Below are positions 22,529-44,213 of a DNA stretch of 64,000 nt, in pieces. Each line of letters starts with the position of its first letter. The first letter of the stretch is position 1. Source of the stretch: Lobulomyces angularis (taxonomy: Eukaryota; Chytridiomycota; Chytridiomycetes; Lobulomycetales; Lobulomycetaceae); the NCBI GenBank assembly GCA_027604685.1, contig JADHYX010000064.1, forward strand, positions 1-64,000, in the 5' to 3' direction. Both the position numbers and the translations under genes were made by a program. The notes under the pieces are model-generated. The model was not told the origin of the DNA and did no database searches. It was given only the letters and a program-made list of their open reading frames with translations.

Positions 22529-23856
<1,328 letters not shown>

Positions 23857-24203
23857 TTCAATTTTTTTCTTAATCAATGGAGGGTTTAAGGGTTTACATT
23901 ATAAAAATAACCAGAGTTTATTTTCACACTGAAGTTAGGCATGGTATTTAAAACATTAAAAATAATGAAAACCCAGCTATAATTTTCGATCTGTTTTATT
24001 TTTTTAAGTTTTTATGCCAATGTTGATATATGTATAAAAATTCTTCCAAGTATAATTTTGGTTTGAAATAATAAATGTATTGAAGTTACGAAACAGAATA
24101 TATTAGTTATATTAACTCAACGTACTATTTGCCTCAACGTACTATTTGCAATACTGTTTTTTAAAAAGTTGTCTTCTTTGATTGAAAAGAACCATTAGAG
24201 TTA
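23857..24203. other. Actin upstream region
   Basis: This is an AT-rich spacer of about 350 nt between the actin start codon and the outer edge of the Fanzor element. It should carry the actin promoter. A direct duplication of CAACGTACTATTTGC occurs at about 24119 and 24135. Confidence 0.45.
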
Positions 24204-24234
24204 CACTAATAAAAACCTATCACCACTTTTGTTC

Positions 24235-24273
24235 ATAGTGTTTGGGCATTAAGTTTTTGAACATTAAATATTC
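24235..24273 (-). repeat. Right terminal inverted repeat of the Fanzor element
   Basis: This 39-nt segment matches the reverse complement of 26386-26424 with five mismatches. It also forms one arm of the 3' hairpin described for the element. Confidence 0.85.
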
Positions 24274-24341
24274 AAAAAAAAAACCCAAACACCAATTAAA
24301 AATAAAATAGCGAAAACTCTTTAGGAAAAACATATGGTTTA
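24235..24341 (-). ncRNA. Candidate Fanzor guide-RNA (fRNA) scaffold / conserved 3' module
   Basis: This region starts at the stop codon of the Fanzor frame and runs to the element end. It holds a two-part hairpin: GTGTTTGGG (24238-24246) pairs with CCCAAACAC (24284-24292), and TTTTTGAA (24254-24261) pairs with TTCAAAAA (24271-24278) around a nine-nt loop. The adjacent block TAAAATAGCGAAAAC (24303-24317) is identical in the other two copies. TnpB and Fanzor guide RNAs are known to derive from the 3' end of their gene and element, with the guide just beyond. That this is an fRNA is therefore inference; transposase-binding DNA is the alternative. Confidence 0.55.
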
Positions 24342-26306
24342 TCTACTTAAATAAATTGGTCTAACTCCATGAAGTGAAGTACTTTGAACTACATCCTTCA
24401 AATTTAGAGTAGCAACGTCATCGCTATTTAATCTTTCAAGTGATATACCATCATTATTCAATGTTTGCTTACAGTTTTTGTTTTTACAACAAAGCAATCC
24501 ATGAACTTTGATAAGTTTTTCTTTTTTATTAGGATTAGGATGCTCTCTTTCTTTAAATGTTTCTAAAGTTCTACTTTTACATTTAGGACAGATTGAAGAG
24601 GTTAAATATTCATTCACCAAACATACTTGATATCCTGCCTTTTTAAACATATCCCTAAATCCTTTTCCTTTTGTTGGAACTTGGTATTTCATAGCTGTCC
24701 TTGACCATTCTCCAATTAACACTGTTGTGATTTAGCACCAAATTTTTCTTTGAATTTTTTTAAAATTTAGTTTCAGATTTTTGAGTACTTATGAAAGCAT
24801 TTAGTTTTTCAATTTTGTAAATAGTGAGTTCCGATAGTGTAATTCTAATTAAGAAAAACGGTACAAGTAATCCTTTAAATAAAGATAATATGCAACTAGA
24901 TCAAGTAGCTTTCGCGATGGTATAGGTAAATTAAAATTTTTTAGATCATTCTTTTCGTAAACATCTTGTTTTGTTAAAAGTTTATTATTATTTCCAAATT
25001 TTTTCTTATAAATTCGTAATGTTTAGATCTACTTTCACGTCTTCTTTGCATTTGAGTATATCTAAGTTTCTCATCATTCCATCCTATATAAAAAACATAT
25101 TTAATAATTTATTAAAAATTTGTCTTTACCGAAACAATATAATAAATCTCTTTTATTTGGATCAATGTGAACATGATTTTCCTTTAAAATATTGTCTTGA
25201 AAATATTCTGAAGGTAAATCTTTTTTTTTGGTTTAATACGATTGGGTTGTTCTTCTTTCTTGGTTTATGGTCTGGTTTTTTCTTTTTTTTCTTTTTCTAT
25301 TCTTTTTTTTATTGTTTGTTGTAATGTCTTCCAAACAAACAGTAATTGAAACTCCATCGGTTTCAGTCGCACCTGAAAAAACCTTTCCATTTCTTGATTT
25401 GAATGGTTTTTTTTCATATTAAATAATAGGTTCCAAATATCTTCCAGATTATCTTTTATTTTTAGAGTTCCCATTGTTAATTCACTGCCTAATCCTAATA
25501 CAACTTTTATTAAAATGTTAGTGTCGAATCGAATATGTCTTGGTATAGTTGAAGTAGATAATGGAAATACAAAGTTTTAGTTGATCTTGTTGAAACAATA
25601 AACCAAGTTTATAGTACGGTTCAAAATGTTTAAAAGTATTACAAACATCATAAGGAATGGAATTTTTTTCAATTGTGTCAGGTAATATAACTCTTAAAGA
25701 TTAACAACACTAAGCTCATATTCATTCAACTCATTAGTAACTGTAACGTTTTCCAAAATTATTTTTTGCACTAGCCATTCTTGCTTGTAAAACTTTTATC
25801 CAATCATTTTTTAGCATGTTTTCAGGTATTAAAGATAATTGTTTTTTAATAATCAAGTTTGAAATAAATGTTTTTAGCTTATAGGAAAAAAAATGTTCTT
25901 GAATGTTGACAGTATAAATTGTAATTATTTTATTAGCTTGGTAACGAGCAATTTGATCAAAGTACTTGACATTTTCTTGTATGTAGCCAATTTCAGTTTT
26001 TTTATTCTTCAATATATTCCATTAGTAATTCGTTACTAATAGAAATATATCCTGAACTATTTTTTATTGTTTTTATTGAATAATTTGGAAACTTGCATAT
26101 TCTAGTAAAAAAATCAACATTAACCCTATCCATTTGTTTTGGTTAGGGTAGTTTAACATAAAATACTTAAAAAAATGGGTTGTATGAATAGTTATTCGAT
26201 TTGCGATGTAAATCAAATTTTGTATTTTTTCAAATTGATTAGATGTTCCAATAAATACTTTAGTGAACTTGGTTTTATTACAGGAATGTTTTTGCATTTG
26301 GTACAA
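24339..26306 (-). pseudogene. Fanzor RNA-guided nuclease (TnpB-like), decayed
   Basis: Segments in order on the minus strand match a Fanzor protein, but lie in shifting frames. An N-terminal helical part (ANRITIHTTHFFKYF) is followed by TVNIQEHFFSYKLKTFI at about 25860-25910. Next come RHIRFDTNILI near 25520 and a TDGVSI strand near 25350. RuvC-I follows as IDPNKRDLLYC (about 25131-25165), then an apparent 46-nt intron (25084-25129), then KLRYTQMQRRRE. The C-terminal part has IGEWSRTAMKYQVPTKGKG at about 24720-24660, a CPKC...CCKNKNC zinc ribbon and LNSDDVATLNL before PIYLSR. At least six frameshifts or in-frame stops separate these blocks, so no full-length protein can be read. The TnpB family is RNA-guided; activity here is not expected. 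Confidence 0.85.
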
Positions 26307-26385
26307 TTTAATTGAAAAAAAGTTTGATTTTTTCTTCCCTTTTTATAGTGTTTTTTTATGAATTTTTTTGCGTTCTTGTTAATTA

Positions 26386-26424
26386 GAATATTTTTTGTTC
26401 AAAAATATAATGCCCAAGCACTAT
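26386..26424 (-). repeat. Left terminal inverted repeat of the Fanzor element
   Basis: Inverted partner of 24235-24273 (34 of 39 matches). It sits about 65 nt upstream of the RNR1 start codon. Confidence 0.85.
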
Positions 26425-26489
26425 AAAAACCAAACCAGGAACAGGGTTTTAATTAAAAAAAATTTATAATTAACAATCGAATCCAATAC

Positions 26490-29400
26490 ATGTTTGTCAT
26501 TAAAAGAGGTATAGCTTCACATAAACAGACTTACATTGAAATTTGTTTATGTTAGATGGGAGAAAAGAACGGGTCGCTTTTGATAAAATCACCAGTAGAA
26601 TTAATAAACTATGCTACTCACTTGATATGAACTACGTTGGTAATTTAAAACGAAGCCTACAATTACTTCACTTTCAGCTCTAATTGCTCTATTAACTTAT
26701 TATTTTTAATGTTCCTAGACCCTACAAAAGTTGCCCAAAAAGTAGTGACAGGGATATATCAAGGTGTCACCACCGTTGAATTAGATAACTTAGCAGCTGA
26801 AACTGCTGCATATTTAACTGTACGTTTCTTTTTTCATTTTATTATGTTATACAAATTACTTAATTTCGCTATAGACAAAACATCCAGATTATGCATTGCT
26901 CGCAGCTAGGATTGCAATTTCTAATCTACATAAGGAAACCAAAAAGCAATTTTCCTCTGTTTGCGAAGACTTATACAACTGGATAAACCCTAAAACGAAA
27001 AAGCATTCACCCATGATATCAGAGAGTACATATGCTATAATTACAGAGTTTGATTACATATAAAAAAACTAGCGCTTATATTTTTTTCTTAGAAATGCAG
27101 CTCGTTTAAATAGTGCCATTATATACAACAGAGACTTTAACTATAACTACTTTGGGTTTAAAACATTGGAAAGAAGTTATCTTCTAAAGATTAATGGTGT
27201 GGTGGCTGAACGACCGCAACATATGCTAATGAGAGTTTCCGTTGGTATTCACGGGCATGACATTGACGCTGCAATCGAAACCTACAACTTATTATCAGAA
27301 AAATACTTTACGCATGCTAGTCCAACCTTATTTAATGCTGGCACTCCTAGACCACAGTTAAGTAGCTGTTTTTTGCTTACTATCAAAGACGATAGTATAG
27401 ATGGGATCTACGAAACATTGAAGACGTGCGCTTTAATAAGCAAATCTGCAGGTGGTATTGGCTTAAATATTCATAAGGTAAAGTTTATCAAATATAAATT
27501 GTACTGTAATTTGACGCCTTTCATGCATAGATCAGAGCGATGGGATCCTATATTGCAGGAACTAACGGTCATTCCAACGGTATTATTCCTATGCTCCGAG
27601 TTTACAATAACACTGCTCGCTACGTTGATCAAGGAGGAAACAAACGGCCTGGTGCTTTTGCCATCTACCTAGAACCTTGGCACTCAGACATTTTTGAATT
27701 TTTAGACTTAAAAAAAAATACTGGTAAAGATGAAAGCAGGGCAAGAGATTTATTTTATGCCTTATGGATTCCCGACCTTTTTATGAAAAGAGTTGAAGAA
27801 AATGGGGATTGGTCCTTATTTTGCCCTGCCGAAGCACCAGGGTTGGATGATGTTTGGGGAGAAAACTTTGAGGTAAAACATTGCAGCTAAAAAAGTTTAC
27901 ATTTTTTAGGCCTTGTATGCCCAATACGAAAGAGAAGGACGAGCAAGAAAAGTAATAAAAGCTCAAAAATTATGGTGGTCAATTGTTGATGCCCAAATGG
28001 AAACTGGCGTTCCATACATGCTTTATAAAGATGCTTGCAATCGCAAATCTAACCAGCAAAACCTTGGAACTATCAAATGTAGTAATCTTTGCACAGAAAT
28101 AGTGGAATACTCTGACCCAGATGAAGTTGCTGTTTGTAATTTAGCGTCACTTTCATTACCAGCCTTTGTTCATAATAAAAGATTTGATTTCGACAATTTA
28201 AGAAAAGTAATACATTAAATATAAATGTGGGTTATAAATTTTTTTTTTGATTTTAGGTCACAAAAGTCGTTACGAAGAACTTAGACAAAATAATAGATAT
28301 TAACTATTATCCAGTTCCAGAAGCAAAGCGTTCAAACACTCGACATAGACCCATTGGATTAGGTGTTCAAGGTCTAGCAGACGCTTTTATTAAAATGCGA
28401 TTGCCTTTTGATAGCGATGCAGCTCAACAGCTTAACAAAGACATTTTTGAAACTATATATTTTGCGGCGTTAGAATCTAGTTGTGAAATGGCTAAAGAAC
28501 GCGGTCCATATGAAACTTACAATGGGTCACCCGTTAGTAAAGGAATCTTGCAGCCAGATATGTGGGGAGTTACTCCAAGTGATCGTTGGGATTGGCATAG
28601 CTTGAGAGAAAAAATTAGTCAATATGGAGTTAGAAATTCACTACTAGTAGCTCCAATGCCAACAGCCTCTACAAGTCAAATATTAGGGAACAATGAATGC
28701 TTTGAACCTTATACTAGCAACATTTACACTAGACGAGTTTTAGCAGGAGAGTTTCAAATAGTGAATCCACATCTTTTGAAAGACTTAACAGAATTGGGAC
28801 TTTGGAATGACCTAATGAAAAATAGAATTATTAGTGAAGGCGGATCTATACAAAACATTAAATCCATTCCAGAAGACTTGAAAAAAATATATAAAACTGT
28901 TTGGGAATTAAGTCAAAAAAAATTAATTGATATGGCGGCCGCTCGTGGTGCTTTTATTGGTAAAAAATCAATATTCGATACTGCTTTATTAATAATTTTA
29001 ATTTCCTATTAGATCAAAGTCAGTCATTGAATATCCATATGAAGGAAGCTTCACACGGCACTATGACATCCATGCATTTTTATGGGTGGAAGCAAGGGTT
29101 AAAAACAGGAATGTATTATTGTAAGTTGCAGTAACGCGGGTTTCAACTTTTTTTTAATAACTAAAATTCTTTTTGCAGTACGTACTAGGCCAGCAGCAGA
29201 TGCAATTAAATTTACTGTTGATCAAGCGTTGGTAGAAACAACGAAGCAAGCAAAAGAAGCTGAGGAATTGATTCAATTAAAGAAGAAAAATGTTAATGGT
29301 GCAATCAGTGGCAAAATTTCAAGCATAAAAATTAAATCTAGCAATGTCATATCTGATGAGGAATCCTCATCGTCATCATCAGATGGAGAAAATATAATTC

Positions 29401-42315: not shown

Positions 42316-44213
42316 ATGATTTCAGAAGTTGAAGCTTACAAAGCAAAAGGAAATTTGGCTTTTCAAGCTGGAAAATTTGAGCAAGCTGTTGCAGGTAGCT
42401 GTTATATCCCAAATTTTTTTCACTAAGGAATTGTTTTACATTGTAGAATATACAAAAGGTATTGAATTCTTAAAATCAAATAAGCGTCCAACTTCTATTA
42501 TGGTATGAATTGTGGTTTTTTTTTTTTTTGATTTTAATTCGAAGTGGTAAAAGTTAAAGTAACTTTTAACATTTTTTTGTTTTCGATGATTTATTTTTTA
42601 TTTTTTATTTTTTAGAATACAATGTACAATTTCATATCCTTACAGGTGAATATATTCCATTTTAAGTGTAAGGATGATTTAAAAAATAATTTTTTTCTGT
42701 AGGAAAATATTGAAAAATCAATTCCTCCACCATCAGTAAAAAATCAACTGTTAGCAGTACTTTATTCGAATCGATCAGCTGCAAACTTAAGCAAAAAGAG
42801 CCTGATAGAAGCAAGTTTGGATGCACAGCAAGCAATAAATTTAAACCCCAGTGAAGTCAAATATATTTACAGATTAGCAGAGGTTAAATTTCAGCAAAAT
42901 TTGTACCACGAATCATTAAAACTCTTTATCCAATGTTCAGAATTAATGCCTAAAGACCATATTAGTTACTCTAATATTATAGAAAAGATTACATTGATAA
43001 ATTTTACTTTAAAAGACATGGATAGTGGACTGAAAATCTTACAAATATCTCCTGGAAAGGATATTTGTTTTAAAACGTTGCTGGCGCCAATTCAAAGTGC
43101 AATTTTTGACTATGCCATTCAAATGAAAAATTTTATCTATTTCATATCTCACAGAGCGTCAAAACAAGCTCTGATAGTAGACGCTTGCTGGGATATCGAT
43201 GGTATACTTAAATTTGCCACTGAAAATGATGTTGAAATAGTTGGTGGTAAGAAATTCTCGAGTTATTGTAATTTATCTACACATTTTAGCAATACTGACT
43301 CATTATCATGTTGATCACGCTGGTGGAATTCCTCCTCCGCCTTTCGATAAGTATGGTATTCGGTAAATATATCATAGAACTTTTATTTTACTTATTAATG
43401 TTGATACATGTAGTGTCGATGGTTTAGCAAAATTACTTAAAAAATTACCGCACATCAAAGTATTTATAAATGAACATGAGGTATATTTATTTTATTTTCA
43501 TTTTTTTATTATTATCATCATTTAGATACCCCAAGTCATTGCTGGAAATCCTGATATTTCTCAAAAACAAATAGTACCTACAACAGATGGATTTGAAGTT
43601 TCTTTACCTTTGGAAATCAAACCTAAAAATCATCGGCATTCATTTTCTCCCATGATACGTCAAAATACTGCAACACGTCGCAATACCCTTAATTCACCTT
43701 TAAATTTTCAACAACGCATACCTATTAAATTTATTCATACACCAGGTCACTCTCGTGGAAGTCAATGCATTCTTGTTAACAATAACAGACTATTTACTGG
43801 TGATACTATGTTTATTGGCTCTTGTGGCCGTGTGGTAGGAGCAAAAAAATTTTACATATTCATAATTTTTAAAGGATTTTCCCGATTCTTGTAAAAAATC
43901 TATGATACATTCATTAAATGTTAAACTTGGAAGGCTACCTGGGGACACCATGGTAGATTAACAAACAAAATAATTATACACAATTCAAACTTGAAAAAAA
44001 ATTAGGTTTTACCTGGCCATGCTTATGGTGGAAAATTTACTACTATTCAGTGGGAACGAGAAAGTGGAATATTATCAATAGAAGGTAATGGATTATAAGG
44101 TTCTGTTTTAGAAAGTCTCCCTTCAAATTTTTATTCATTTTTTATTTTTATGTATTTGATTAGCATTTGGTGTTCAATTAATTATTAGAGGCCCCAATTC
44201 ATATAAAATATAG
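42316..44213 (+). CDS. TPR domain fused to glyoxalase II-like metallo-beta-lactamase
   Basis: The N-terminal exons encode TPR helices (EAYKAKGNLAFQAGKFEQAV, LLAVLYSNRSAANLSKKSLIEA), then KYIYRLAEVKFQQNLYHESL, as in HSP90/HSP70 co-chaperones. A metallo-beta-lactamase domain follows with the metal motif THYHVDHAGG (HxHxDH), then FIHTPGHSRGSQCILV and LFTGDTMFIGSCGR. The last part is LPGHAYGGKFTTIQWERESG. All main zinc/iron ligands are present, of the hydroxyacylglutathione hydrolase/ETHE1 type. Domains are read through one series of exons with compatible phases, so they appear to be one gene, not two. About eight introns interrupt it. The substrate is unknown. Confidence 0.75.

Follow-up and report, generated by a model that had tools for sequence, protein, structure and literature searches.

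A transposable element that carries a Fanzor gene and no transposase poses two questions, namely what moves it and what its nuclease does for it. Both are raised by a locus of the chytrid Lobulomyces angularis, within the 64,000-nucleotide stretch of contig JADHYX010000064.1 analysed here (the window), where the remains of such an element lie between an actin gene (22529-23472, minus strand) and a ribonucleotide reductase gene (27073-29012, plus strand). The actin, which is highly conserved, was identified by a search with the larger piece of the gene, and the ribonucleotide reductase gene was named by eye. The biological role of Fanzors is given as unknown in the 2023 Nature paper (Saito 2023, PMC10432273). 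From left to right, the element is made up as follows.

26422 to 26423, minus strand: TA target duplication on the left, where the four outside bases are TATA.
24238 to 26421, minus strand: decayed Fanzor1-only transposable element, 2,184 bp, with terminal-repeat matches at 24238-24262 (+) and 26397-26421 (-) and TA on both sides.
26376 to 26421, minus strand: left terminal inverted repeat, GTGCTTGGGCATTATATTTTTGAAC..., from arm alignment and the end-motif search.
26342 to 26348, minus strand: CTATAAA, TATA-box-like, upstream of the Fanzor gene, by eye.
26073 to 26342, minus strand: Fanzor N-terminal block (KHSCNKTKF...IHTTHFFKYFMLNY), clade 1, from translation; the N-terminal part of the sister copy L015 matches SpuFz1 (E 1.3e-7).
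25734 to 26021, minus strand: REC-like block with YFDQIARYQ, whose D-Q aligns to SpuFz1 Q129-Q130 by way of the L015 alignment.
25265 to 25576, minus strand: IPRHIRFDTNILIKVV... block in the other frame; the homologous piece of the sister copy L062 matches SpuFz1 (E 1.7e-27).
25134 to 25169, minus strand: RuvC-I, HIDPNKRDLLYC, with the catalytic Asp kept; the same motif in L062 aligns to SpuFz1 IDPNKRDILYC.
24339 to 24731, minus strand: end of RuvC and zinc ribbon (IGEWSRTAM, NEYLTSSICPKC, CCKNKNC, LNSDD), from translation and PDB sequence match.
24236 to 24338, minus strand: 3' non-coding region, a candidate omegaRNA scaffold from its fold, the comparison of right with left ends and pair counts, with a stem of GTGTTTGGG (24292-24284) and CCCAAACAC (24246-24238).
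24238 to 24283, minus strand: right terminal inverted repeat, GTGTTTGGGCATTAAGTTTTTGAAC... (inward reading), from arm alignment and the end-motif search.
24236 to 24237, minus strand: right TA target duplication.

The original prediction had described a decayed Fanzor-only transposon with its own inverted repeats, and this description holds up well. The Fanzor motifs that it quoted do follow one another on the minus strand in the order given, from the N-terminal block to a C4 zinc ribbon, with the matching frame switching four times between two frames and stops lying between; the inverted arms (24232-24283 and 26376-26427) are 52 nt long and 81% complementary, and no transposase was found inside 24238-26421. 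Matches to RuvC-I and the zinc ribbon, on which the Fanzor identity had been staked, were both obtained. In this regard, the zinc-ribbon piece of the window copy, written for the PDB search with an X at the junction of two frames, finds PpFz1 of Parasitella parasitica as its best match (PDB 9cf0, E 6e-23; PMC11423790) and also SpuFz1 of Spizellomyces punctatus (8gkh, E 1.5e-17), while the better-preserved L062 finds SpuFz1 as the best solved match of its RuvC piece (8gkh, over the RuvC-I region, E 1.7e-27). In one frame, the window copy also aligns over 598 columns, at 33% identity, with a metagenomic relative of 572 aa, the E-values relating to a tiny database. Against Pfam, the window zinc ribbon reaches 20.5 bits with Cas12f1-like_TNB, below the cut-off of 26.3, and the two remaining window pieces match no Pfam family; in the sister sequences L012, P0001 and L028 only the zinc-ribbon model appeared, again below cut-off. 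A Pfam match of L062 to TOM20_plant was sub-threshold and was judged spurious.

Membership of Fanzor1 in particular can be read from the pattern D-X(125,275)-[TS][TS]-X-X-C4 zinc finger-X(5,50)-RD given by Bao and Jurka 2013 (PMC3627910). The sister L012 carries it in full, with 159 residues from D to TS, then the C4 finger and 11 residues to RD, and the window copy retains the D, TSS and the four cysteines, with RD changed to SD. An alternative catalytic Glu and a DED triad are described as Fanzor1 traits (Yoon 2023; Saito 2023, PMC10432273), and candidate residues for them, namely the D of IDPNKRD, the E of NEYLTSS and the D of NSDD, matched by eye, are present in the window copy. At the level of sequence comparison, the window element is confirmed as a decayed Fanzor1-only element.

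The element is far from alone. Searched against its own genome it gives at least 69 DNA match rows, including six other near-full-length copies at 81-88% identity, and a 332-aa C-terminal frame and an N-terminal piece of Fanzor give at least 139 and at least 104 rows, respectively, in which rows overlap and one copy may give several. The end motif GTGYTTGSGCATTATCTTTTTGAAC, allowing up to three mismatches, occurs 148 times in the genome (77 + 71) and its reversed control not at all (0 + 0). With the PDB matches and the copies, this shows that the window element is no chance resemblance. Copies with the same ends, whose absence would have told against the original prediction, therefore exist, and its search for intact ones was answered in part: other copies share the ends, and no intact full-length Fanzor frame was found among the genome matches. 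A clean TA duplication is seen in 10 of the 13 near-complete elements examined, the window element included. Two Fanzor clades carry this same end motif, clade 1 (MEKHSCNKTKF..., to which the window copy belongs) and clade 2 (MEQKHSTNKTNF...). Two of the groups into which left ends were sorted, LA and LG, are cut short where their contigs stop: the LA ends have a near-identical interior, with one copy (C42) whose N-terminus is open up to the end of the contig, and the LG ends are near-identical, with just 14 gene residues assembled. From this similarity we take both to be young families. At a position comparable to that of CTATAAA in the window copy, sister left ends read CTATAAATAG or similar, by eye. 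The annotated protein P0017 (hypothetical protein HDU92_007081) is 100% identical to contig C59 over 129 of its 307 aa and 48-88% identical over other stretches, as would be expected where a gene has been predicted across a broken element.

What moves elements of this kind? Pieces of one DDE transposase family are found on contigs C276, C280, C288, C89 and C70. The C276 copy matches Pfam DDE_3 in two pieces, one at 29.5 bits (above the cut-off of 28.6) and one at 16.6 (below it); the family gives 30 match rows in the genome, none of these genome matches being stop-free over most of the query, and the C280 copy is 62% identical. The latter sits between ends at C280:11221 and 13729, GTGCTTGCGCATTATCTTTTTGAAC. 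One base in 25 separates these from the commonest Fanzor end, and the same 25 bases recur in most left ends of group LH and in most right ends of group R3. The ends of the window element differ from the C280 ends at 2 of 25 bases (left) and 4 of 25 (right), and many other Fanzor ends at 0-1. In other words, the Fanzor elements, which duplicate TA, share their terminal inverted repeats, exactly or nearly so, with a transposase-encoding element of the same genome. Classic Tc1 and mariner families have a DD(34-41)D/E catalytic spacing. The second D and the E of the C276 copy are 44 residues apart, and the transposase is for this reason filed only as DDE_3, Tc1/mariner-like, and not as a member of a classic Tc1/mariner family. 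Judged from the shared ends, the DDE_3 element is a likely mover of the Fanzor elements. The mode of mobilisation, left as inference by the original prediction, is thereby narrowed to a DDE_3 element with nearly the same ends, with movement in trans still a matter that we infer. The element at C280:11221-13729 also has a 158-aa open frame on the opposite strand (L068 508-981, plus).

The right end has a further property that the left end largely lacks. On the minus strand, 24236-24360 folds at -26.8 kcal/mol (z -4.0), and 0 of 200 shuffles are as stable. The fold z averages -3.7 in the 22 right ends compared (0.1 to -7.1), as against -0.8 (1.1 to -3.1) for 11 left ends read outward through the same repeat; there are exceptions on either side, in that the fold of two right ends does not exceed chance and a single left end has a z of -3.1. 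In a hand-drawn structure 90.1% of 505 cells pair, compared with 45-55% when it is slid, and one A-U pair is switched to C-G in seven sequences. Cells with a change on both sides number 9, which 2 of 500 shuffles reach, and pairs with a change on both sides number 3, which 203 of 500 reach; RNAalifold on the right ends returned one 7-pair stem with no compensatory pair, and an Rfam search of the window returned no family. The outermost pairs of the structure include the TA, and guide RNAs of Fanzor1 are predicted to hold TA within their outermost pairs (Yoon 2023). From this modelling the right end is a candidate guide-RNA-like scaffold.

Bacterial TnpB proteins of IS200/IS605 and IS607 elements, which have TnpA partners, suggest how such parts could work together: the TAM lies at the left edge of the element, the guide is taken from its right flank and the nuclease favours retention of the element. 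The same working mode is proposed for the Fanzor element here. Unlike the TnpB elements, however, the partner in this case is a DDE transposase that targets TA, and any TAM bases beyond the TA therefore need another cause. The proposal runs as follows. A Fanzor1-only element with the ends of a TA-duplicating Tc1/mariner-like (DDE_3) transposon would be moved in trans by that transposase. In a live element the right end would be transcribed into a guide RNA, with a scaffold ending in the right inverted repeat and TA and a guide formed by the host sequence that follows. Fanzor would then cut the insertion-free version of the same site, using the NNTA at the left edge as TAM and the right flank as guide, and repair from the filled copy would restore the element or copy it in. 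Elements that had by chance inserted next to a fitting NN would be kept and multiplied, leaving a left-flank motif specific to each subfamily. Taken as a whole, i.e. a dead Fanzor1-only copy, DDE_3 trans-mobilisation, a guide RNA and a footprint of TAM-dependent retention, we put the probability of this account at roughly two in three.

The footprint is where the account can be confronted with the genome. To this end, 100 of the 148 ends were fetched with 30 outside bases, comprising 38 Fanzor left ends, 48 right ends, 10 transposase-type or other ends and 4 that were set aside, and searches blind to the flanks added 13 left and 4 right ends, giving 51 left and 52 right. Groups were built from the inside sequence alone; LB was then formed by joining four clusters before counting, and LH was split into two and one single end added after its flanks had been seen. 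The search pattern behind the first end list contained TATA and was thus biased on the flank, and ends present only in that list (L040, L045, L048, L051, L055 and L067) were excluded, as were L176 (6-base flank, TATA), L178 and L184 (junction unclear or truncated), L190 (TATG), L119 (single ATTA end) and L134, L169 and L171 (no TA).

Among the 51 left ends the dinucleotide before the TA is AT in 19, CA in 14, TA in 9, AA in 5, AC in 2, and CT and GT in 1 each, and it is far from evenly spread. CA stands in 13 of the 18 clade-2 flanks (LA 7/8; LB 6/10, with TA in the other 4) and AT in 19 of the 33 clade-1 flanks (LC 4/5, LD 5/8, LG 6/6, LH2 4/4 with one reading ATTT), with LH1 having AA in 3 of 4. 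Against the window background, where CA precedes TA in 3.9% of cases and AT in 12.6%, binomial probabilities are 1e-9 for LA, 6e-7 for LB, 4e-6 for LG, 0.0013 for LD and 0.0011 for LC. Since the motifs had been seen before testing, a label shuffle is the fairer test: 82 of 144 pairs within left groups are identical, which none of 20,000 shuffles reaches (best 61), and the original flank-blind clusters give 68 of 129, again reached by 0 of 20,000 (best 59). The right ends behave otherwise. All 52 together show 15 different dinucleotides, with CA in 3 and AT in 4, and in the same test on the three right groups 49 of 541 pairs are identical, a value reached by 1,764 of 20,000 shuffles. The left ends mark separate insertions: among the 45 flanks compared (of 51), identity over 24 bases never exceeds 71% between any two.

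The motif might, of course, be an oriented target preference of the transposase, since the left and right ends differ within the repeat and bases on the left side could be read alone. Some preference of wider reach does exist, since 32 of the 52 right ends, and all but one of the 33 clade-1 left ends, have T at -6. Nevertheless, left subfamilies with near-identical first 25 bases carry different motifs (CATA, ATTA, AATA), the mixed right ends do not fit such a preference, and the transposase-type and other ends do not have the motif (CA 0/10, AT 1/10); moreover CATA is the biochemically measured TAM of a relative. We consider this explanation unlikely. More improbable still is that the two bases outside the TA belong to a longer left end and are simply inherited, as the near uniformity of the families with near-identical ends (LA and LG) could be taken to indicate. 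TA meets GTG at both ends and likewise in the transposase element, most near-complete elements being bordered by TA on either side as noted above, and this reading is hard to credit. An empty-site search with 8 of 13 joined-flank probes found, for a CATA site, a single diverged paralogue free of the element (C187, 73% identical), which reads CCAAAAAG against the joined flanks CC-ATAAGG; the C and A are in place without the element and the TA is not kept, a weak point against inheritance.

Retention by Fanzor gives the motif a direct meaning. At an element-free site the left NNTA and the right flank together are precisely a TAM and a guide, such that a motif at this position points to Fanzor. 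In SpuFz1 the TAM is CATA, of which no base can be changed without loss of cutting, Q129 contacts the base at -3, and CA is conserved outside the left repeat of Spu-1 (Saito 2023, PMC10432273); the Cell 2024 paper (PMC11423790) has a passage in which the SpuFz1 and GtFz1 motifs appear in swapped order. The clade-2 flank CA plus TA gives CATA, identical to the SpuFz1 TAM. At the position of SpuFz1 Q129, found with a search pattern that required Q at the next position, Q is present in all 5 clade-2 peptides found, every one from LB, and D in 14 of 15 clade-1 peptides, with H in the remaining one. Where a D peptide could be assigned to a left group, that group is LE, LF or, for a single copy flanked by AATA, LD; a lone LC copy in the sample has N in place of D, and LA, LG and LH fall outside it. 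PpFz1, with TAM ATN, has Q at this position and A at -3, on a reading of the L015 alignment. Replacement of Gln by Asp or Asn at this contact with -3 may mark a switch away from CATA; the residue can at most signal 'not CATA', and does not encode ATTA.

The subfamily of the window copy is the exception. Its own left flank is TATA and there is no footprint on this copy; group LE, to which it belongs, and its sister LF have AT in 0 of 3 ends each and CA in 1 of 6 combined, and two further LE ends that were set aside read TATA and TATG. Age alone would hardly have erased a motif here, since near-full copies still share at least 81%. Either the TAM of this subfamily was less strict, or its spread owed nothing to Fanzor. 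The absence of AT from these six ends also lends something to the notion that Fanzor travels as a passenger and contributes nothing to the spread, the motif arising from effects independent of it such as chromatin or hidden element classes, and the statement in Saito 2023 (PMC10432273) that the role is unknown leaves room for it. Set against this notion, the motif tracks the Fanzor clade (Fisher 2e-7 for CA, 3e-5 for AT) on nearly the same repeat, and we regard it as very unlikely.

Under the retention account, the flanks hint that Fanzor cutting helped to decide which copies survived. We also think it somewhat probable that RNA-guided selection has left a fossil record in this genome, whereby the NN of the landing site decided between keeping and loss according to whether it completed the TAM of the subfamily, with the TAMs readable from left flanks as CATA in clade 2, ATTA in several clade-1 families and AATA in another. 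As to the route, homing into empty homologous chromosomes seems to us more likely than repair after excision, because an imprecise excision footprint would spoil the TAM.

The closest known system is SPu-1/SpuFz1 of Spizellomyces punctatus (PMC3627910; PMC10432273), which is alike in its size of ~2.1 kb, a Fanzor1 gene only, inverted ends of 30-33 bp, putative TA duplications, a right-end guide RNA (a candidate in the present case), CA outside the left end, the TAM CATA and many copies in one chytrid genome. It differs in that Saito 2023 (PMC10432273) reports no transposase flanked by Spu-1 repeats in S. punctatus, whereas here a DDE_3 element has nearly the same ends, and in that one left motif is reported there, whereas here two clades share ends and several clade-1 groups have ATTA, not CATA. 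PUl-4 and other Fanzor-only Mariner elements likewise have Fanzor1 only, terminal repeats identical to those of a Mariner family and TA duplications (Bao and Jurka 2013, PMC3627910); they come from another host, and a flank motif does not figure in the description given there. PpFz1 has ATN as its TAM and carries an extra cyclophilin-binding insertion, FRI (PMC11423790). Fanzor1-only elements with Mariner ends have indeed been known since Bao and Jurka 2013 (PMC3627910). What we believe to be new is a second left motif on the same ends within one genome, from the comparison of two clades, together with the transposase; by title and abstract, no report of the two-motif pattern or of this host was found in the open-licence literature. 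One genome thus provides an internal comparison, with nearly the same ends, two clades, different left motifs and mixed right flanks. The idea of retention becomes testable, TAMs of uncharacterised Fanzors are predicted, and a candidate is supplied for a transposase of the kind that was not found for Spu-1. If the reading as a fossil record is true, the genome itself would provide evidence, in a eukaryote, that transposon persistence is driven by Fanzor cutting.

Several smaller observations concern the ends and their surroundings. The clade-1 left ends L007, L008, L022 and L024 are altered to TAGTGCTCGCG...ATGGGCATTATC or similar, as if by a short insert within the repeat, and in right group R2 a C at -3 is commoner (8/22) than in R1 (2/25). 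A 1,038-bp element (L066, G000:C280:303-1340) has nearly the same ends and other short open frames, with no Fanzor or transposase frame seen by eye. In the window itself there is a single weak match to the end motif, with three mismatches, at 42944-42961, and a 17-bp unit, CTCAACGTACTATTTGC, stands in two tandem copies at 24116-24149, ~90 bases outside the right end.
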